Shown here: positions 28,326 through 35,839 of the stretch, piece after piece | How the letters are laid out: each line of letters opens with the position of its first letter | Numbering within the stretch: position 1 is the first letter of the stretch | DNA from: Minwuia thermotolerans | GTDB taxonomy: Bacteria > Pseudomonadota > Alphaproteobacteria > Minwuiales > Minwuiaceae | Reading direction: 5' to 3' | NCBI RefSeq assembly: GCF_002924445.1 | Contig: NZ_PIGG01000031.1 | Location: 248,001 to 312,000, forward strand | DNA length: 64,000 bases | Notes under the pieces: model-generated | Database searches by the model: none | The model's input: the letters and a program-made list of their open reading frames with translations, nothing else | Told to the model about the DNA's origin: nothing | Translations under genes and position numbers: made by a program

Positions 28326-28514
28326 GCCGCCGCCGTCCCGCGAGGGACGAACGCGAGGCCGTGTTCGCTGCGCCGTCACAGATCGGTCGCAGGCCGGCCC
28401 CGTCATGGTCCCGACCCCTTTCCCAGATTCCCTGAAGGGCCGGGTTCGCGCGCCGGCAACGGGCGCACGAACCGAACGGCTCGTGAGAAGCAACAACAAC
28501 CAGGGAGTACCGTG

Positions 28515-28883
28515 ATGAAGCCGACCCTGCTGACCGCAGCCCTTGCCCTGCTGGCGACCGCCAGCGGCGCCGCCCTTGCCGAGCCGAAGGACGAGGTTCT
28601 GAATCTGTCCGGGGGCGATGCCCGCGGCATCCTGATCGACCGCGACGGCGACGGCCGCGGGGATGAGCGTGCGACCGTCCTGGGTCAGGTCTCCGAGATC
28701 CGCGGCGACGTCCACTACGCGCGCTACGCGGTCGACCTGGACAATGACGGCGTCGCCGACCGCTGGGTGGTGCGCGCCAAGACGGTGGGGTCCGAACGCG
28801 AGATGGCGCTGAACGCGACGCCGGGCGGCCCGCCGGCCGACACCGACGTCGGCGCCGGCGACCCGATCATCCCGACCGAGTAG
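28515..28883 (+). CDS. Secreted acidic protein with two Asp-rich calcium-loop-like motifs (array member 1)
   Basis: This 122-residue protein of unknown function has a signal peptide (MKPTLLTAALALLATASGAALA) cleaved near residue 22. The mature part holds two EF-loop/TSP3-like motifs, DRDGDGRGD (about 42-50) and DLDNDGVAD (about 74-82). The second is embedded in the module RYAVDLDNDGVADRWVVRA, which recurs in array members at 30.7, 31.6 and 32.4 kb. The ATG at 28515 is preferred over the GTG at 28512 because AGGGAG is seven bases upstream. The leader contains GCAACAACAACC. A strong hairpin terminator follows at 28944. Calcium binding is inferred only from the Asp pattern. Confidence 0.85.
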   Translation: MKPTLLTAALALLATASGAALAEPKDEVLNLSGGDARGILIDRDGDGRGDERATVLGQVSEIRGDVHYARYAVDLDNDGVADRWVVRAKTVGSEREMALNATPGGPPADTDVGAGDPIIPTE

Positions 28884-28943
28884 ATCGCCCGCCGCCTGGC
28901 CCGCCCCGGCGAGGCCGGGGCGACAGGGCGGATGATCGCGTCG

Positions 28944-28978
28944 AAGGGCCGGACGCCGCAGGGCGTCCGGCCTTTCCG
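28944..28978. terminator. Strong bidirectional hairpin terminator
   Basis: A 14-bp stem, AAGGGCCGGACGCC (28944-28957) with GGCGTCCGGCCTTT (28962-28975), closes a four-base loop. It lies between two convergent genes (array member 1 on plus, the broken yihY gene on minus) and would serve both. Confidence 0.85.
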
Positions 28979-29003
28979 TTGCGCGAAGGCCAGGGTGCCG
29001 GAG

Positions 29004-29965
29004 TCAGGCACCCGGGACATTGTCGGCCATGTACGCGCCACGCTCACCGATCGGGCGCGGACTGCCGACGGTCGTGTCCGCCCGCGTCTGATGCTCCATC
29101 TCCGCGCTGAGCAGCGCGCCGAGCAGAACGACAAAGGCGCTGACATAGAGCCACATGAGGAGGGCGATGACCGCGCCGATCGAGCCATAGGTCTCGTTGT
29201 AGCTGGCGAAGTTGGCGACATAGACCGAGAACAGGGCCGAACCGACTGCCCAGAGAACCACCGCAGCCACCACGCCCCAGGCGATCCAGACCAGGCGCGC
29301 CTTCCGCCGGCAAGGGCCGTGGCGATAGAGAATGGCAAGCGCAGCGAACAGCGCGCCGAGCGCGATGGGCCAGCGCAGGATCGCGGCCAGCCATTCCCCG
29401 AGCGCACCGAAGTTGAAGAGATTCAAAACCACCGGCGTCAGAACCACCGCGGCCAGGGCGACAACGCCGACGACGATCAGCAGCGTCGTCAGGGTCAGGG
29501 AAATCAGGATCTCGCGCAGCAGACCACGACGGCCGTTCTCGCGGTAGATCACGCCCAGTCCCGTGACCAGGGCCAGCACGCCCGCGCGTGCGCTCCAGAT
29601 GGCGACGCCGAGCGACAGGATCGCCGCCAGACCGACTGCAGCGCCCTCGCCCCGGGTGAGGCTCCGGACCTGCCCTCGAGGACCGACAGTACCGTCTCGG
29701 GCAGAAAGTTTCCGGCCATCGCCAGAAGGGGCTCCACGTCGGCCGGATCGGCAAAGAAGCCATAGAAGCCGACCAGGGCCGCGATCGCCGGAAACAGCGC
29801 CAGCATCGCGAAGAAGGCGACCCCGGCGGCGATCAGGGAAAGGTTGTCCTGACCGATCCGGTCCTTCACCCGCGAGAGAATTGACGACCAGTCGTCCCGG
29901 CCAAATCCGGCCGGGCTGGCGATATTGTCCGCCCGGCCGGGTCCGCGTCTGGCGTCAAGTGCCAT
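29004..29965 (-). pseudogene. YihY/BrkB family membrane protein, frameshifted
   Basis: This encodes a polytopic inner-membrane protein of the YihY/BrkB family (once called ribonuclease BN), but in two overlapping frames. The first frame starts at ATG 29965 (MALDARRGPGRADN) and has SLIAAGVAFFAMLALFPAIAALVG, then turns to nonsense after SVLEG. The second frame continues as QVRSLTRGEGAAVGLAAILS, then LLREILISLTLTTLL, and ends at 29004 (MADNVPGA). The break is near 29671, where GAGGGCAGGTCC would read through as GAGGGCCAGGTCC. One lost C explains it. Apart from this break the two halves together give a normal protein of about 320 residues, so this is a recent mutation or a sequencing error. Confidence 0.85.
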
Positions 29966-30348
29966 GGTGGGCGGCCTCCCATCCTCGCAGGACGCAGATC
30001 GCTCGTCCCTGGAGGGCAGTTGGCGATCGCCCATGCGGATTCAATCGCCGCGCAACCGCCGGAGCGTCGGCTGACGCTACCACGAACCGAGGCGTCCCCT
30101 CTGATCGCTCCGGCCTCGCGGCGCGTCAAACGGGCGCACAATTCCGGGAACAATTCCCTGCTTTATCAGATAGTTGAAAAGCATATCTGACAATTCAGAC
30201 GATCCTGTGTCGGAATTTGATCGGCGACCCGGTTCAACTCCGGATGTGGATGTCCACCTGTCCGCTCAACGGCGTCGGGTGCTCCGGACAGCCCCATGCC
30301 AGGAAGAGAAACAAGAGCCATCCGTCCACTCCCACAAGGAGCGTCGAC
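29966..30348. other. 383-bp intergenic region between divergent yihY and array member 2
   Basis: No gene is visible on either strand. The right part is AT-rich for this genome (around 30150-30220, with CAGATAGTTGAAAAGCATATCTGAC) and probably holds promoters for both directions. The element CGGTTCAA, shared with other array members, is at 30230-30237. A Shine-Dalgarno AAGGAG is at 30336-30341. Confidence 0.6.
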
Positions 30349-30591
30349 ATGCGCAAGACAATCGTGACCACTGCCACCGCGCTGCTGATGACCGCCGGCG
30401 CAGCGTCGGCCGCCGATGATGGCGGGGAGACCGAGGCCACCGCCGATACCGGCGTCAGCGTGCAGAGCTATGGCATCAGCAACGAAGTCGTGGCCGGCGC
30501 CGATACGGACGCCGGGAAGGACGGTGAAGCCGAAACCACATCGGGCCTCGACGCGTCCGGCGAAGCCTCCGCGTCCAGCGACACGGACTGA
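30349..30591 (+). CDS. Small secreted acidic protein (array member 2)
   Basis: This 80-residue protein of unknown function has a signal peptide beginning MRKTIVTTATALLMTAG and ending near ASAA (residue 22). The mature peptide is short, disordered-looking and almost all Ala, Asp, Glu, Gly, Ser and Thr, with no aromatic core except one Tyr. It has no complete DxDxDG loop. The signal peptide closely resembles those at 34.3 and 31.6 kb, which ties it to the array. AAGGAG lies eight bases before the ATG. The shared element CGGTTCAA is 112 bases upstream of the start. Confidence 0.75.
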   Translation: MRKTIVTTATALLMTAGAASAADDGGETEATADTGVSVQSYGISNEVVAGADTDAGKDGEAETTSGLDASGEASASSDTD

Positions 30592-30620
30592 GGCGCAGGA
30601 CCTCCACGAACGCGGTTTCA

Positions 30621-30654
30621 GGCGTCGGCCGCCAGGCCCGATGGAGCCGACGCC
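30621..30654 (+). other. Hairpin downstream of array member 2
   Basis: GGCGTCGGC (30621-30629) pairs with GCCGACGCC (30646-30654). No T-tract follows, so it may be an attenuator or mRNA 3'-end stabiliser rather than a terminator. The variant element CGGTTTCA lies just before it at 30613. Confidence 0.4.
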
Positions 30655-30722
30655 GCGCGCCGGACGATGCGCCGGCGGAACCGCCCATCCGACATCAAGA
30701 AGAAGAAAGCGAGAGTACAACC

Positions 30723-31415
30723 ATGCGTAGGACAATCATCGGAACATCGACCGCGCTGCTGCTCGCCGGCGTTTCCGCGCAGGCCCTGGCGGCGGATACC
30801 ATCAAGATCGACCGTGACCGCGACGGCACGGCGGAGATGGAAGGCGTGATCATGGCCGGTATCGACCATGACCGCGATGCGGGAACCCCGCAGCTCTATG
30901 CCGTCGATACCGACAATGACGGCGACGCCGAGAGCTGGGTCATGCGCGATGCCTCCGCCGAGGCCGGCGCATACTATCATACCTATACCCACTACCAGAT
31001 GCCGGCCTATGACGGCGAGCGCCGCGCCATGGTGGACATGGACAATGACGGCGTCGCCGAAGCCGACGCCCGCGTCCTGGCGGACTTCGATATCGATGGT
31101 GAGGGCGAGCAGCCGACGCACTATGCCGTCGATGTCGACGGCGACGGCTACGCCGACCGCTGGGTCTACTACAACGCCGACCTCCAGACCGAGGGCTCGG
31201 CCCGCGGCCACCAGGTCGCCAGCGACTATCTGGAGATCACCGAGGCCGAGCAGGTTGCGGCCGATATCTCCGCGGTGAGCGGTGCGAACCAGCTGGATGA
31301 CGAGACGGGCCCCAACCCGCTCGAAAGCACCCGCTCCAATCCGGGGGAGCCCTCGGATCTGGACACCGGCGCTGACGCCTCCTATGGCGACAACACCGGC
31401 GTCGACGATCAGTAG
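30723..31415 (+). CDS. Secreted protein with five Asp-rich calcium-loop-like motifs (array member 3)
   Basis: This 230-residue protein of unknown function has a signal peptide (MRRTIIGTSTALLLAGVSA...) ending near ALAA (residue 24). The mature region carries five nine-residue Asp loops: DRDRDGTAE (30-38), DTDNDGDAE (62-70), DMDNDGVAE (105-113), DFDIDGEGE (121-129) and DVDGDGYAD (137-145). Two of them end modules of the form YAVDxDxDGxxxxWV. The tail has ESTRSNPGEPSD, which recurs near the N-terminus of the member at 32368. There is no anchor or sorting signal at the C-terminus. It looks like a free periplasmic or secreted calcium-binding protein, but no family was recognised. Confidence 0.85.
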   Translation: MRRTIIGTSTALLLAGVSAQALAADTIKIDRDRDGTAEMEGVIMAGIDHDRDAGTPQLYAVDTDNDGDAESWVMRDASAEAGAYYHTYTHYQMPAYDGERRAMVDMDNDGVAEADARVLADFDIDGEGEQPTHYAVDVDGDGYADRWVYYNADLQTEGSARGHQVASDYLEITEAEQVAADISAVSGANQLDDETGPNPLESTRSNPGEPSDLDTGADASYGDNTGVDDQ

Positions 31416-31433
31416 GATCGGTGGACAGGTGTC

Positions 31434-31509
31434 GTGTCGGGCGTCAGCCCGACACCTCCCTCCATGCCTCATGGAAGGCCCCGGCGCGCCGGCCGCGCGC
31501 CGGGGTTTG
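31434..31509 (+). terminator. Tandem hairpins, the second a probable terminator
   Basis: The first hairpin is GTGTCGGGC (31434-31442) with GCCCGACAC (31447-31455). The second is CCCCGGCGCGC (31479-31489) with GCGCGCCGGGG (31495-31505), followed by TTTG. They separate array members 3 and 4. Confidence 0.65.
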
Positions 31510-31623
31510 TCGTCCGCCGGTGCGCGATTCTGACCCGTACGGTACAAATCCGCACACTCGCTCCCACGTGGAAGGGACGGGAGGCGTTCGATGCGCCTGT
31601 CCCGCAGTTGGGAAAGAAGAAGA

Positions 31624-31650
31624 ATGCGTAAGGAGCGAGATTATGCGTAA
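31624..31650 (+). promoter_or_regulatory. Eight-codon leader frame overlapping the start of array member 4
   Basis: An ATG at 31624 opens a frame (MRKERDYA, stop TAA 31648-31650) that runs across the true ATG at 31643. It contains the GGAG ribosome site of the main gene. The first nine bases, ATGCGTAAG, are identical to the first nine of the main gene, so the start region looks duplicated. Translational coupling is possible but not shown. Confidence 0.4.
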
Positions 31651-32182
31651 GGCGCTCATGATGACCCCCATTGCCGTGCTCATGGCGGCAATGCCGCTAT
31701 CCGCCGGCGCCGCCGACGCGGATACCAGCGCGAAGGCGAAGATCAAGACCGGCATGATGGACGAGACGCGGTCGGACCAGAACTATCCGCTCGCCCGGAT
31801 CGACGACAACAACGACGGGACCGTGGATGCCGAGGGCAATATCGTCGCCGGTATCGACCATGACCGCGATCCCGCCACCCCCTATCTCTACGCCGTCGAT
31901 CTGGATGGCGACGGCGTCGGCGATCGCTGGGTCAGCCGGGCCGGAGGCGCGGACTACTACACGACCTACGCCGACTACGAGATGGACCCCCGCACGCCGA
32001 ACCGCAGCGCCTGGCTGGACATGGACCAGGATGGCGTGGCCGAGACCCGCGCGGATGTCGTGGCCGACTACGGCATGGAAGACGATGTGCCCATGCATTA
32101 CGCCGTCGACGTGGACGGCGACGGCTACGCCGACCGCTGGGTCTACCACAATGAAGGGCTGCAGGTTGAAGGCAGCTCCTGA
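31643..32182 (+). CDS. Secreted protein with four Asp-rich calcium-loop-like motifs (array member 4)
   Basis: This 179-residue protein is a close paralogue of member 3. It has a signal peptide (MRKALMMTPIAVLMAAM...) ending near SAGAA, then Asp loops DDNNDGTVD (54-62), DLDGDGVGD (86-94), DMDQDGVAE (126-134) and DVDGDGYAD (156-164). It shares with member 3 the blocks VAGIDHDRDPATPYLYAVD and MHYAVDVDGDGYADRWVYHN, in the same order and spacing. This implies gene duplication. The start is set at 31643 by GGAG eight bases upstream and by the signal peptide; the frame is open further upstream. The element CGGTACAA is 96 bases before the start. Confidence 0.85.
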   Translation: MRKALMMTPIAVLMAAMPLSAGAADADTSAKAKIKTGMMDETRSDQNYPLARIDDNNDGTVDAEGNIVAGIDHDRDPATPYLYAVDLDGDGVGDRWVSRAGGADYYTTYADYEMDPRTPNRSAWLDMDQDGVAETRADVVADYGMEDDVPMHYAVDVDGDGYADRWVYHNEGLQVEGSS

Positions 32183-32367
32183 GGACGCGGCCTGAAACCC
32201 GGGCCAGGCGAGAAGCGCGGCTGCGGCCGGTTTCTCGTCCGGGCCTCGGGCCCCATGTCGCACCCACGGTTCAAATCGGGCGGCGAAGCGCCACCTGCCC
32301 TGCATCGGCGGCGCGCAACGCCGCGTTCCCGATTTGACAACAACAACAACGAACAGGAGCGAGAGTT

Positions 32368-33009
32368 ATGCGTAGAACGCTCATTGTCACCCCCATCGCC
32401 ATGTTGATGGCGAGCACCGCCCTCGCCGCCGACGAGAATGTGGACGCCACCCCGGGCGCTTCCACTCCGATGATGGAATCCACCAGGTCCGATCCGGGCG
32501 TGCCTTCCGACGCGCTCGAGGCAGGGCCGAACATCACCGCCGGCGCCACCCAGTTCAACGAGGTGCTCATCGACGACTATGAAGATGTCGAGATGACCGA
32601 CGGGACTGTCTACCGCGAGCCGCGCACGGTGCGCTTCGACACCGACGCCGACGGCCAGTTCGACACCGAGGGCCAAGTCGTCTCCTACTACAACCGTGCA
32701 GACGACTCGTCGATCCCTGCGCTCTACTATGTCGATATCGACGGCGACCGTGATCCCGAGACCTGGATCATCCGCCGCAGCGAACTCGCCACCGGCACGG
32801 ACGCCGAGTACGCGATGCGCGAGGACGCCCGGTTCGCCATGCGCGACGATGTCGAGGCCGATGACGAGGACCGCTTCTTCTTCGACCCCGAGTTCGACTT
32901 CTGGGATGATGACGACGATCTCGTATATGAAGAGAACGACGAAACGATCACCCTCGTCGGCTCGCAGCGGAGCCCCGGCGCCCCTGCCAGCGCTACCGGG
33001 CAGGAGTGA
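32368..33009 (+). CDS. Secreted acidic protein with two Asp-rich loops and a very acidic tail (array member 5)
   Basis: This 213-residue protein of unknown function has the array-type signal peptide (MRRTLIVTPIAMLMASTALAA). After ESTRSDPGVPSD it has one diverged copy of the shared module: DTDADGQFD (91-99), then ALYYVDIDGDRDPETWIIRR (119 onward). The C-terminal third is extremely acidic (DDVEADDEDRFFFDPEFD, then WDDDDDLVYEENDE). The leader has a perfect CAACAACAACAAC run, and AGGAG is upstream of the ATG. The element CGGTTCAA is 94 bases before the start. A hairpin terminator follows at 33082. Confidence 0.85.
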   Translation: MRRTLIVTPIAMLMASTALAADENVDATPGASTPMMESTRSDPGVPSDALEAGPNITAGATQFNEVLIDDYEDVEMTDGTVYREPRTVRFDTDADGQFDTEGQVVSYYNRADDSSIPALYYVDIDGDRDPETWIIRRSELATGTDAEYAMREDARFAMRDDVEADDEDRFFFDPEFDFWDDDDDLVYEENDETITLVGSQRSPGAPASATGQE

Positions 33010-33081
33010 CCGAAACGGTCTTGCATGAAGGTCCGATCAGCCGCAGATCCTGATCTGCACTGATCGAACACCGTCATGATG

Positions 33082-33118
33082 AAATCCCGGCCGGGCACGT
33101 CCCGGACCGGGATTTCTG
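33082..33118 (+). terminator. Terminator after array member 5
   Basis: AAATCCCGG (33082-33090) pairs with CCGGGATTT (33107-33115) and is followed by CTGCTTTG. The A-stem/T-stem arrangement would work in either direction. Confidence 0.7.
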
Positions 33119-33287
33119 CTTTGCGACGAATTCACGACTGATTTTGTAGTAAAATGATCCGCCGTGACAAAGACGGTCACAATCTTGGCGGGCGGTTCAA
33201 CTGTCTCTCCGACAGCATACATGAGAGTCACGGCAGCCAGATTTACGCTGCCCGAGTACAAGAACAAGAATGCGTAGGAGTTCAGTC

Positions 33288-33584
33288 ATGCGAAACGCGC
33301 TTTTCATCACCCCGATCGCGATACTCATGGCCGGCAGCGCCCTGGCCGCCGAGGCGGGCCCCGAGGCCGCCGCCGAAGCCGAGAACAAGGTCATCATCGA
33401 CGAGGATGCGCCGGAGGATATCTACCCTCGTCCGGAGGGTGAGACCAACACCGTCTTCGCGCCGGAGCCGGGCGTGGTCGAGATGTCGCCCGAGCACCTG
33501 GTGCCGGCCGACGAAGCCGAGGTCGTGACGGTTCCCGAAGCGGAGAACGAAGCCGAGGCCGACACAGCCACCGGCGCCGAGTAA
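33288..33584 (+). CDS. Small secreted acidic protein (array member 6)
   Basis: This 98-residue protein has the array-type signal peptide (MRNALFITPIAILMAGSALAA). The mature part is rich in Glu, Ala and Pro (for example VIIDEDAPEDIYPRPEGE) and has no DxDxDG loop. An in-frame ATG 18 bases upstream (33270, MRRSSV) is possible. The ATG at 33288 is preferred because GGAG lies nine bases before it and the signal peptide then begins normally. The element CGGTTCAA is 88 bases upstream. The 278-bp gap before the gene has no other frame. Confidence 0.75.
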   Translation: MRNALFITPIAILMAGSALAAEAGPEAAAEAENKVIIDEDAPEDIYPRPEGETNTVFAPEPGVVEMSPEHLVPADEAEVVTVPEAENEAEADTATGAE

Positions 33585-33594
33585 CGGACGGGAA

Positions 33595-33615
33595 CGGCCG
33601 GCCCTGCGCCGGCCG
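33595..33615 (+). other. Hairpin after array member 6
   Basis: CGGCCGGC (33595-33602) pairs with GCCGGCCG (33608-33615) around a five-base loop. No T-tract follows. It separates members 6 and 7, which are only 84 bp apart and may be partly co-transcribed. Confidence 0.35.
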
Positions 33616-33668
33616 GACTCCCCGCTAACCCGACCCGACCATTCACAGCCAGAAAGGAGGACAGGCAG

Positions 33669-34040
33669 ATGCGACATGCATTGCTGGCCATTCCCGCCGC
33701 CGTCCTCATCGCCGGCGCCGCAGGCGCCGCGGAGACGACGGACCCGGACGACGGCCTCGACAATATCACCACCTCCGACGTGAAGCAGGACTATGACATC
33801 GCCGGCGACGGCGCGGCGGCCGAACTGGGCCGCGCGGTCTCGACGCCGGGCGCGGTCGAGGAGACCACGGGACCGCTGGGCGACGCTGTCGATCCCGGCG
33901 AGCGCCCGAACGCCCCCACCGAGGAGGGCAGCGTGATCACCCCGGATGAACTCGCCGGCTCGGCCGAGGAGATGAGGGAAATGGATGCCTATTTCGACGG
34001 CGTCGGCGAAGAGAAGGTGCGGACCCAGGGCGCCGAATAG
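33669..34040 (+). CDS. Small secreted acidic protein (array member 7)
   Basis: This 123-residue protein of unknown function has a signal peptide (MRHALLAIPAAVLIAGAAGAA) and an acidic mature region (TTDPDDGLDNITTSDVKQD, then VSTPGAVEETTGPLGDAVD). It has no calcium-loop motif and no other recognised domain. AAAGGAGG lies 11 bases before the ATG, a strong ribosome site. A very clear terminator follows. It lacks the CGGTTCAA element, so it may read from the promoter of member 6. Confidence 0.75.
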   Translation: MRHALLAIPAAVLIAGAAGAAETTDPDDGLDNITTSDVKQDYDIAGDGAAAELGRAVSTPGAVEETTGPLGDAVDPGERPNAPTEEGSVITPDELAGSAEEMREMDAYFDGVGEEKVRTQGAE

Positions 34041-34065
34041 GCCCCGCGCGACAGTCGAACGGCGG

Positions 34066-34094
34066 AAAGCCCCGTCCCCGGGACGGGGCTTTTC
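34066..34094 (+). terminator. Rho-independent terminator after array member 7
   Basis: AAAGCCCCGTCC (34066-34077) pairs perfectly with GGACGGGGCTTT (34081-34092), with a T-run continuing to 34093. This is the clearest terminator in the array. Confidence 0.9.
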
Positions 34095-34327
34095 GTCTGT
34101 CTGGCCCCCTCTCTCCGCCCGGCGGCGCGAAGCCATCGACCGCGGAGCACGGCCGCCTGGGGCCGGGCAGTGACCGGTCTGTGACGCCTCGGAGCGGCGG
34201 TTCAAACGCTCCTGCATCGGCCTATCTGACAGGTATCGGCGGCGCGGATGAACCGGACGACAAGAAGCCGGGCCCGACGTCGTCGAGCCGACTGTACAAC
34301 AACCAGAAACAAGTGGAGGTCTTCGCA

Positions 34328-34975
34328 ATGCGCAAGACTCTGATCATGACTTCGATCGCAGCCCTGTTCGCCGGTTCGGCGATGGCTGCGGACATGAAGG
34401 CGGAAGCCGACGCCGACACCAGGCTGAAGGCCGGTGTCGAGGCCGGAACCGAGAGCGGCGCCAAGGCCGATGCTGACGCCACGGCCGATACGGACGCCAG
34501 GGCGGGCATGAAGGCCGAGGAAGAGACCGGCGCCGAAGCAGACGCCGAGGCGGGCGCCGGCGCTGACGTCGAAGCGGGCGCGGACGCCGATGCGGGGATT
34601 TCGACCGAGGGCGACAGCTCCGCCATCGACGGCGCGGGCGACGCCGCAGGCGGCGTGGTGGATGAAGCCGGCGACATGGCCGACGACACCGCCGTCGGCG
34701 TGGGCGAGACCACCGGCCAGGCCATCACCGTGGCCGAAGCGGTCGGCAAGGACGTACGCGACAGCGCGGGCGAGAAGGTCGGCAAGGTCGTCGGCGTTCT
34801 GCACGATAGCTCGGGCGGTGTGAAGTCGGTGCTGGTCGAGACCGGCGGCATCCTGCTGGGCCTGGGCTCGCGGACCGTCGAGGTTCCGGCCAACCAGGTC
34901 AACGTCGACACCGAGGCGGCCGTGGTCGCCATGAGCGAGGCCGAGATCGAGTCCCTGCCCGAATACCAGGGCTGA
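34328..34975 (+). CDS. Secreted Ala/Asp/Glu-repeat protein with C-terminal PRC-barrel (array member 8)
   Basis: This 215-residue protein has the array-type signal peptide (MRKTLIMTSIAALFAGSAMAA). Residues 22-90 are a low-complexity repeat of Ala, Asp, Glu and Gly (ADADTRLKAGVEAG type). Residues about 135-215 form a PRC-barrel domain (AEAVGKDVRDSAGEKVGKV, then the strand VKSVLVETGG). PRC-barrels occur in photosynthetic reaction centre H subunits, RimM and many envelope proteins, and often bind partner proteins. It may be the array's interaction module. ATG 34328 follows GTGGAGGTC. The element CGGTTCAA is 123 bases upstream and the leader has TACAACAACC. Confidence 0.85.
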   Translation: MRKTLIMTSIAALFAGSAMAADMKAEADADTRLKAGVEAGTESGAKADADATADTDARAGMKAEEETGAEADAEAGAGADVEAGADADAGISTEGDSSAIDGAGDAAGGVVDEAGDMADDTAVGVGETTGQAITVAEAVGKDVRDSAGEKVGKVVGVLHDSSGGVKSVLVETGGILLGLGSRTVEVPANQVNVDTEAAVVAMSEAEIESLPEYQG

Positions 34976-35000
34976 CCCTCGGCGCCACGTGCGAAGACCG

Positions 35001-35033
35001 ACGCCCTCGGAGCCGACGCTCCGGGGGCGTTCC
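35001..35033. terminator. Hairpin between convergent array member 8 and PPK2
   Basis: ACGCCCTCGGAG (35001-35012) pairs with CTCCGGGGGCGT (35019-35030), twelve pairs including one G-T. It is followed by TTCCC. It probably ends transcripts from both sides. Confidence 0.55.
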
Positions 35034-35053
35034 CGGTTGCGCGGCCCGCACGC

Positions 35054-35833
35054 TCAGTCGCCCTTCAGCCGCTCAGCCGCCAGCGTCTCGACATCCGGAT
35101 CGAGCGGCGGCGGCCCGAGATCCACGCCGGCGCCCAGATGCTCGGCTACCTGACTCAACGCGGCGATGCGGCCATGGCGCTTCTGCTCGGCGGAGATCAC
35201 CCGCCACGGCGCATCCGGACTGTCGGTCCGCGCCAGCATTTCATCGATCGCAGCCTCGTAGGCGCGCCGCCTGTCGAGGTTGCGGAAGTCCTCGACCGTC
35301 AGCTTCCAGCGCTTCCAGGGGTCGTCCAGCCGAGCGCGGAACCGCCGTTCCTGCTCCTCGGCGGAGACATGCAGGAACAGCTTCACGACCTGCACGCCAT
35401 CGTCCGTCAGCATCCGCTCGAAATCGTTGATCTCGTCATAGGCGCGGCGCCACTCCGCCTCTTCGGCAAAGCCCTCGACGCGTTCGACGAGCACCCGCCC
35501 ATACCAGGAGCGATCGAAGATCGCGACCATGCCGGGCTCGGGCAACCGCGCCCAGAACCGCTCGAGGTAATGGCGTCCGTGATACTGCGCCTTCGGGGCG
35601 GCGATGGGCCAGACCTGGAAGCCGCGCGGATCCATCCTGGCCGTCATTCGCCGGATCAGGCCGCCCTTGCCGGCCGCGTCCCAGCCCTCCAGGACGATGC
35701 AGGCGCGCAGGTCGAAGCGCCGGTAGGCCAGTTCGATCGTCCGCATCGCGTGCTGGAGGTCGTCGAGCCGGGCCGCATAGTCCTTCCTGCCGATCGTGGC
35801 ATCCAGATCGACGTCGGCGAGACGCGAGGCCAT
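35054..35833 (-). CDS. ppk2: Polyphosphate kinase 2 family protein
   Basis: PPK2 enzymes use polyphosphate to phosphorylate nucleoside mono- or diphosphates. The 259-residue single-domain protein has Walker A in LEGWDAAGKGGLIRR, the lid motif DRSWYGRVLVERVEG, and the conserved DPWKRWKLTVEDF segment. Which subclass (ADP- or AMP-phosphorylating) cannot be settled by eye. It starts six bases after the ferredoxin stop on the same strand, so the two may share a transcript. Confidence 0.92.
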   Translation of the reverse strand: MASRLADVDLDATIGRKDYAARLDDLQHAMRTIELAYRRFDLRACIVLEGWDAAGKGGLIRRMTARMDPRGFQVWPIAAPKAQYHGRHYLERFWARLPEPGMVAIFDRSWYGRVLVERVEGFAEEAEWRRAYDEINDFERMLTDDGVQVVKLFLHVSAEEQERRFRARLDDPWKRWKLTVEDFRNLDRRRAYEAAIDEMLARTDSPDAPWRVISAEQKRHGRIAALSQVAEHLGAGVDLGPPPLDPDVETLAAERLKGD

Positions 35834-35839
35834 CGCGGC

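Follow-up and report, generated by a model that had tools for sequence, protein, structure and literature searches.

A stretch of 64,000 nucleotides of the Minwuia thermotolerans genome (contig NZ_PIGG01000031.1, positions 248,001 to 312,000; the window in what follows) contains eight plus-strand open reading frames (orfs), g1 to g8, at positions 28515–34975 (Table 1), all encoding acidic proteins that carry an export signal. In each protein the signal consists of a positively charged start, a hydrophobic core, and an AxA-type signal-peptidase site, the last picked by eye; none of the eight contains a cysteine, and therefore none has a lipobox. All eight products are predicted to be exported. 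Their mature parts have isoelectric points (pI) of 4.37 (g1) and 4.05 (g2–g8) and net charges of about −10 to −39. The orfs, cleavage sites and pI values bear out the first-pass annotation of the window, which had described eight plus-strand genes for exported, strongly acidic proteins. A generally acidic (salt-in) proteome was also considered and is not supported, the median pI being 5.35 over 50 orfs of the window that were called by a crude rule and include those of the array.

The same annotation had presented the genes as a spaced array with hairpins between them, and this holds for g2 to g8, whose successive intergenic gaps are 131, 227, 185, 278, 84, and 287 bp, three of them containing terminator-like hairpins. 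It does not hold for g1, which lies 1465 bp from g2. Most of that gap is taken up by a minus-strand gene for a BrkB-like membrane protein, so that there is no single unbroken array: the array proper is g2–g8, with g1 as an outlier. Counting both strands, the region has nine terminator-like sites, compared with 4.1 (standard deviation 1.9) in shuffled sequences; a further terminator-like hairpin, seen by eye only, lies in the g4/g5 gap.

All eight genes are present in the same order in a sibling genome of the same genus (G006, a single 4.70-Mb contig; the 4.9-Mb source genome is G000), so that the whole set is kept in one related genome and no member is absent from every relative. Amino acid identity between the two genomes is 92–97%, with the exception of g5, which at 69% with insertions and deletions is the fastest-changing member. 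Nucleotide differences fall 22, 19, and 105 times on the first, second, and third codon positions over seven genes (g5 was excluded for its insertions and deletions), and the ratio of nonsynonymous to synonymous divergence (dN/dS) is 0.10–0.33 over all eight, with 0.11 for g1. Both measures indicate that these are genuine protein-coding genes under purifying selection, and the possibility of spurious orfs was rejected on these grounds. The synonymous divergence of g5 is 0.54, compared with 0.07–0.21 in its neighbours, and its alignment has 23 gap positions, as if the gene were recombining or had been replaced.

Seven of the proteins, g2 to g8, share a common signal-peptide (leader) pattern, as had been noted from the sequence. 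Leave-one-out profiles of the leader recover each of the seven above every non-array frame in the window, with E-values of 5e-5 (g2), 9e-7 (g3), 5e-7 (g4), 8e-9 (g5), 5e-11 (g6), 8e-3 (g7), and 8e-7 (g8); g7 is the weakest match, and the runner-up in that search has an E-value of 0.056. The leader of g1 is different and lies outside the family (best E-value 0.45). When a profile built from the seven members plus a ninth gene found in the sibling genome was used to search the whole genome, the seven members matched at E ≤1e-8 and the next match was at 0.12. At the DNA level, the g4 leader shares 71% identity with the leader of g5 and 67% with that of g6.

The ninth gene encodes a protein of ~130 aa and is flanked in G006 by g1 on one side and the BrkB-like gene on the other; it has the same leader type and the same upstream element (see below), has no match in Pfam, and is absent from the window, showing that the array gains or loses members. 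The BrkB-like frame is open in G006 and interrupted in the window, by decay or through a sequencing error.

The mature parts had been described as differing a lot, and this stands only in part, as g1, g3, g4, and g5 share a homologous domain. The domain is a unit of ~58 aa, present once in g1 and g5 and twice in g3 and g4. It carries two Dx[DN]xDG loops, at a spacing of ~32 residues in most copies; the second loop reads YAVDxDGDGxADRWV. A BLAST comparison of g1 with the G006 array gives an E-value of 5e-7 outside its own orthologue. The eight mature parts contain 12 such loops (two in g1, five in g3, four in g4, and one in g5), whereas shuffled mature parts contain 0.39 on average and none of 2000 shuffles reaches 12. 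Across the rest of the window, three stop-to-stop frames of at least 80 codons have one loop each.

A common leader in front of diverged mature parts, together with a member gained or lost between two close species, is also what diversifying weapon families look like, and the products might be secreted effectors directed against other cells. We consider this very unlikely, given that dN/dS, taken over whole genes, gives no hint of positive selection, that one domain is common to four members, that no immunity-type partner genes lie between the members, and that no toxin family is matched above cut-off in Pfam or NCBIfam.

No model in Pfam or NCBIfam matches the domain above its cut-off, and among all eight proteins the only match that passes is the PRC barrel of g8 (PF05239; 36 bits, cut-off 21.2), in agreement with the earlier statement that no family but this one is recognisable; the members thus do not resolve into unrelated known families. 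The EF-hand models (PF00036 and PF13202) stay below cut-off, the best being EF-hand_5 on g4 (14.7 versus 25.9 bits), as do FG-GAP (PF13517 and PF01839; g1 13.7, g3 11.6, and g4 9.8 versus 26.9 bits) and SLT_2 (PF13406; g3 9.6 and g4 12.7 versus 24.3 bits, with a best stretch of 16 residues). Other NCBIfam rows are far below their cut-offs, including ClpS on g4 (E-value 0.0016) and staphylococcal adhesins on the acidic stretch of g8 (E-value 0.0011), and PHROGs gives a single row, for g4, at 0.062.

The loops themselves are of a known kind, as are exported PRC-barrel proteins and acidic exported proteins. One account of Dx[DN]xDG calcium loops (PMC3123361) describes them in 16 structural settings, strand-loop-strand included, and often in extracellular proteins; the array proteins have the same motif and differ in having two loops per ~58-aa unit of a domain to which no Pfam or NCBIfam model gives an above-cut-off match. 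A near-identical stretch, YAVDxDGDGxxDxW, forms the EF-hand-like loop of lytic transglycosylases of the SltB/MltB type, and it is on this loop that cross-matches outside G000 and G006 fall, including PDB rows for SltB3 and SltB at E-values of 0.015 and weaker; however, the match is only ~20 residues long and the array proteins have no transglycosylase domain. For the corresponding loop of Pseudomonas aeruginosa SltB2, PMC12547810 reports a Ca2+ held by four aspartates and a main-chain oxygen. Given this precedent and the 16 known settings of the loop, calcium binding is likely for g1, g3, and g4, and we are less sure of it for g5, because one of its two loops is degenerate; for the other four members nothing points to it. 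Bacterial calcium-type loops linked to high-Ca2+ stress and predicted to face the periplasm are also described for the EF-hand proteins EfhP/CasA (PMC4053335); as presented there, EfhP is predicted to be membrane-anchored, whereas the array proteins are predicted to be soluble and all-beta, with EF-hand matches below cut-off. FG-GAP or integrin-type calcium blades likewise place Dx[DN]xDG loops between beta strands, but the highest-scoring member, g1, reaches about half the FG-GAP_3 cut-off, and with one or two units per array protein no propeller is shown.

Structure prediction with AlphaFold gives, at low confidence (mean pLDDT 66.3, pTM 0.62; an earlier model had a mean pLDDT of 49.8), an all-beta tandem in which strands flank the loops. 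A sequence search of the PDB with the domain profile returned mitrocomin (E-value 0.0088), SltB3 (0.015), an EF-hand protein (0.028), and lanmodulin (6mi5; 0.053). The lanmodulin row, although not significant, raises the question of whether these small, acidic proteins with export signals are periplasmic binders of another metal, such as lanthanides; this is highly improbable, since the match spans one loop only, the top row is the unrelated photoprotein mitrocomin, and the predicted setting of the loops is all-beta and not helix-loop-helix.

The acidity and charge of the array proteins, their repeated calcium-type loops, the turnover of members, and the fast change of g5 would also fit Asp-rich, calcium-loaded proteins of an extracellular matrix or coat, or proteins that organise minerals, building a surface layer, a biofilm matrix, or a mineral deposit. 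This is quite unlikely in our view: there is no similarity above cut-off to a known surface-layer or matrix family in Pfam or NCBIfam, and neither anchoring signals nor type I secretion signals came to notice, although no systematic search for them was made.

A two-box element, GGTWCAA-N16-MYAYNTG, is found 94–129 bp ahead of the start codon in five array genes (g2, g4, g5, g6, and g8) and in the ninth member of G006. The exact pattern has five matches in the whole of G000 and six in G006, all of them within the arrays, and between zero and two in each of five other congeners; a backwards control pattern has one match in G000, none in G006, and zero to four in the others. Averaged over all pairs of the six sites, identity is 0.95 for box 1 and 0.70 for box 2, compared with 0.32 for the spacer and 0.29–0.31 for the 40-bp flanks; the boxes are thus conserved within DNA that is otherwise unrelated. 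Because the pattern was derived from these sites, we place weight on leave-one-out ranking and whole-genome counts and not on its fit. Held-out two-box sites rank 3rd to 5th among ~128,000 window positions and are outranked only by other array sites. Box 1 alone ranks the held-out sites first (g4, 36th); box 2 taken by itself performs poorly (51st to 1360th), and none of 20,000 random local-gap sets reaches the same box 2 conservation at that offset.

Table 1. Features of the acidic-protein array and its neighbours (positions in the window).
Feature	Position	Strand	Description
g1	28515-28883	+	122 aa exported acidic protein; one paired-loop domain; no GGTWCAA element; different signal peptide
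g2	30349-30591	+	80 aa, small acidic exported protein; no known domain
g3	30723-31415	+	230 aa acidic exported protein; two domain copies, five Dx[DN]xDG loops
g4	31643-32182	+	179 aa acidic exported protein; two domain copies, four loops
g5	32368-33009	+	213 aa acidic exported protein; one domain copy, one loop intact and one degenerate
g6	33288-33584	+	98 aa, small acidic exported protein; no known domain
g7	33669-34040	+	123 aa, small acidic exported protein; no known domain
g8	34328-34975	+	215 aa exported protein; acidic Ala/Asp/Glu-rich stretch, then PRC barrel (PF05239)
Promoter-like element of g2	30231-30260	+	GGTWCAA-N16-MYAYNTG
Promoter-like element of g4	31541-31570	+	GGTACAA form
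Promoter-like element of g5	32268-32297	+	GGTWCAA-N16-MYAYNTG
Promoter-like element of g6	33194-33223	+	GGTWCAA-N16-MYAYNTG
Promoter-like element of g8	34199-34228	+	GGTWCAA-N16-MYAYNTG
Terminator-like hairpin	31489-31503	+	3' of g3, in g3/g4 gap
Terminator-like hairpin	33099-33113	+	3' of g5, in g5/g6 gap
Terminator-like hairpin	34076-34088	+	3' of g7, in g7/g8 gap
BrkB/YihY-like membrane protein gene	29004-30034	-	Pfam match (PF03631); frame interrupted here
PPK2 gene	35054-35833	-	PF03976; in same insertion as array

The spacing of the element suits a −35/−10 pair. A search for sigma-70 type promoters does not find the sites, giving one match, on the other strand, versus 0.8 expected. Genes g3 and g7 have no element of their own and follow g2 and g6 closely (131 and 84 bp), from which we infer five transcription units, g2–g3, g4, g5, g6–g7, and g8; the shared element suggests that these are co-regulated. 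Leader (g2–g8), domain (g1, g3, g4, and g5), and promoter-like sites together support the proposal of the first-pass annotation that local duplication gave rise to a set of proteins that are secreted or periplasmic.

A looser pattern restricted to GGTTCAA, which leaves out g4, has five matches in G000 and six in G006 (control, zero), four and five of them in the arrays. Neither of the two sites outside the arrays, one in each genome, precedes an obvious regulator gene, and no autoregulated sigma factor was found in this way. The G000 site, a chance match, lies near frames resembling the ectoine synthesis genes for EctB and EctC, so the organism could tolerate salt.

The PRC barrel of g8 bears on a further explanation, that these are ordinary envelope proteins, specific to the lineage, of an alphaproteobacterial-type general stress response, and that calcium plays no particular part. 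PRC-barrel genes are listed in the general-stress regulons, controlled by EcfG/RpoE2, of Sphingomonas melonis (#1478; PMC6599016) and Sinorhizobium meliloti (SMb20522; PMC6180224), and the line that carries the array also has an expanded set of exported PRC-barrel proteins. Seven PRC-barrel matches are found in each of G000 and G006 and one in each of seven other genomes of the family. In G000 one match belongs to RimM, one to g8, and the remaining five to four further proteins that look exported, one of which is matched twice; the single matches of G003 and G007, the two that were translated, look like RimM; exported PRC proteins in general, and not the array alone, thus mark the G000/G006 line. 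The explanation is nevertheless unlikely, because the EcfG element, given as GGAAC-N17-20-GTT in PMC6599016, occurs within 300 bp upstream of none of the eight genes and only three times in the whole window on both strands, and the element that the array genes do share is a different one; it is also unlike the ECF26 element, GGAATA/GT, given in PMC6180224. The g8 gene differs from other exported PRC genes in bearing the array leader and element, the latter being present at none of the nine other PRC loci checked in G000 and G006. The four extra exported-looking proteins of G000 are encoded outside the window, and one has a long acidic, repeat-rich part before its barrel.

Taken together, these observations lead us to prefer, tentatively and at somewhat less than an even chance, a set of acidic proteins that is specific to this lineage, is regulated as one, and would bind cations and hold water in the periplasm or extracellularly for envelope stress; part of the remaining probability goes to explanations other than those weighed here. 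A single dedicated regulator, probably an alternative sigma factor, would recognise the two-box element (GGTTCAA, 16 nt, CYAYNTG) and switch on the five putative units together. The products would leave the cytoplasm by way of their signal peptides and function either in the periplasm or extracellularly, where g1, g3, g4, and probably g5 would take up Ca2+ or a similar cation in paired strand-loop-strand loops, to judge from the motif, while negative charge and bound water would come from the other members, the small acidic proteins and g8 with its PRC barrel. The combined effect, under ionic, osmotic, or drying stress, would be to buffer divalent cations and water at the envelope, or to organise them.

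Several points weigh against this. The idea of an envelope calcium or ionic-strength buffer, raised in the first-pass annotation, finds motif support in four of the eight members, but g2, g6, g7, and g8 have no calcium-type loop. Confidence in the predicted fold is low, Foldseek with two models found no match above noise (best E-values 0.75 and 1.8), and the best VIA-align scores, to Tudor/SAWADEE-type barrels (Z 4.3 and 4.5), are in a range that the tool calls common. The outlier g1 has neither the array leader nor the element. No regulator was found, the looser-pattern sites point to none, and no EcfG-type element lies within 300 bp upstream of any of the genes; the stress role is argued by analogy, from the PRC-barrel genes in the general-stress regulons of the two bacteria named above. 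Wide importance is also questionable, as the array was found in none of the genomes searched besides G000 and G006.

A bolder reading, which we regard as doubtful, is that of a leader-cassette locus, in which promoter and signal peptide have been copied as a unit in front of largely unrelated acidic mature parts, giving a family of fast turnover served by a regulator used only at the array, and in which a new calcium-type beta domain and its polyanionic partners make up an inducible shield of ions and water for the envelope. If the interpretation of the locus is right, it would be a compact, testable case of a new exported family arising, with a constant control region and export signal and a varying cargo. 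It would also contribute a family of calcium-type domains without an above-cut-off match in Pfam and NCBIfam, and a promoter class serving seemingly one locus, so that its regulator would be within reach of a simple reporter screen.

The distribution of the array was examined in genome samples of the class and phylum, which overlap and cover part of the species; g2, g6, and g8 were compared at syntenic loci only. The g3 protein was found in two of 41 genomes, its own and G006, and had no match among plasmids. The domain profile (A2) matches in five of the 385 genomes of the class, the source genome included; the other four matches span only 20–25 residues, in proteins that, to judge from their motifs, are MltB-type transglycosylases. 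In the phylum sample its only match at E 1e-4 is its own genome (one of 398), as is that of g5 and of g7 in the class sample (one of 385 each). A pattern scan of genome_contigs gave at least 593 matches, with one confirmed among the matches listed, in a Crenothrix metagenome-assembled genome and presumably transglycosylase-like, and 24 pattern matches in viral_contigs included none that was confirmed. Because these scans use short patterns or samples, distant relatives may be missed. In these searches full matches to the domain are restricted to G000 and G006. Within the reach of the tools used, this restriction, the domain family, and the promoter class that seemingly serves one locus are new. 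The literature searched yielded no description of an array of this kind, which is no proof of its absence in print.

The array lies in a space of ~7.5 kb (28326–35838) between rimO and a ferredoxin gene, which contains g1, the BrkB-like gene, g2–g8, and the PPK2 gene. In three of the five other congeners (G001, G003, and G005) a convergent ferredoxin gene follows rimO after 54, 73, and 114 bp, respectively, and in G002 the two are separated by ~1.4 kb with another gene, which is lipase-like to judge from a motif; in G004 no ferredoxin match was found in the stretch read beside rimO. Within the 9–12 kb read beside rimO in G001–G005, no match to any of the g1–g8 proteins falls below E 0.5, and g3 has none at E 0.001 in those whole genomes. 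Gain of the array in the G000/G006 line is a simpler reading than its loss elsewhere. A foreign base composition was considered and rejected: the GC content of the array (0.669) is close to that of its flanks (0.664 and 0.680), so that nothing marks it as a recent arrival from a genome with a different composition. Across the genus the interval from rimO to the ferredoxin gene varies in content, and it may be an insertion hotspot. The PPK2 protein is 95% identical to that of G006 and 36–38% identical to the best copies in G001–G005, and it is 56% identical to one copy in G008, a member of another genus.

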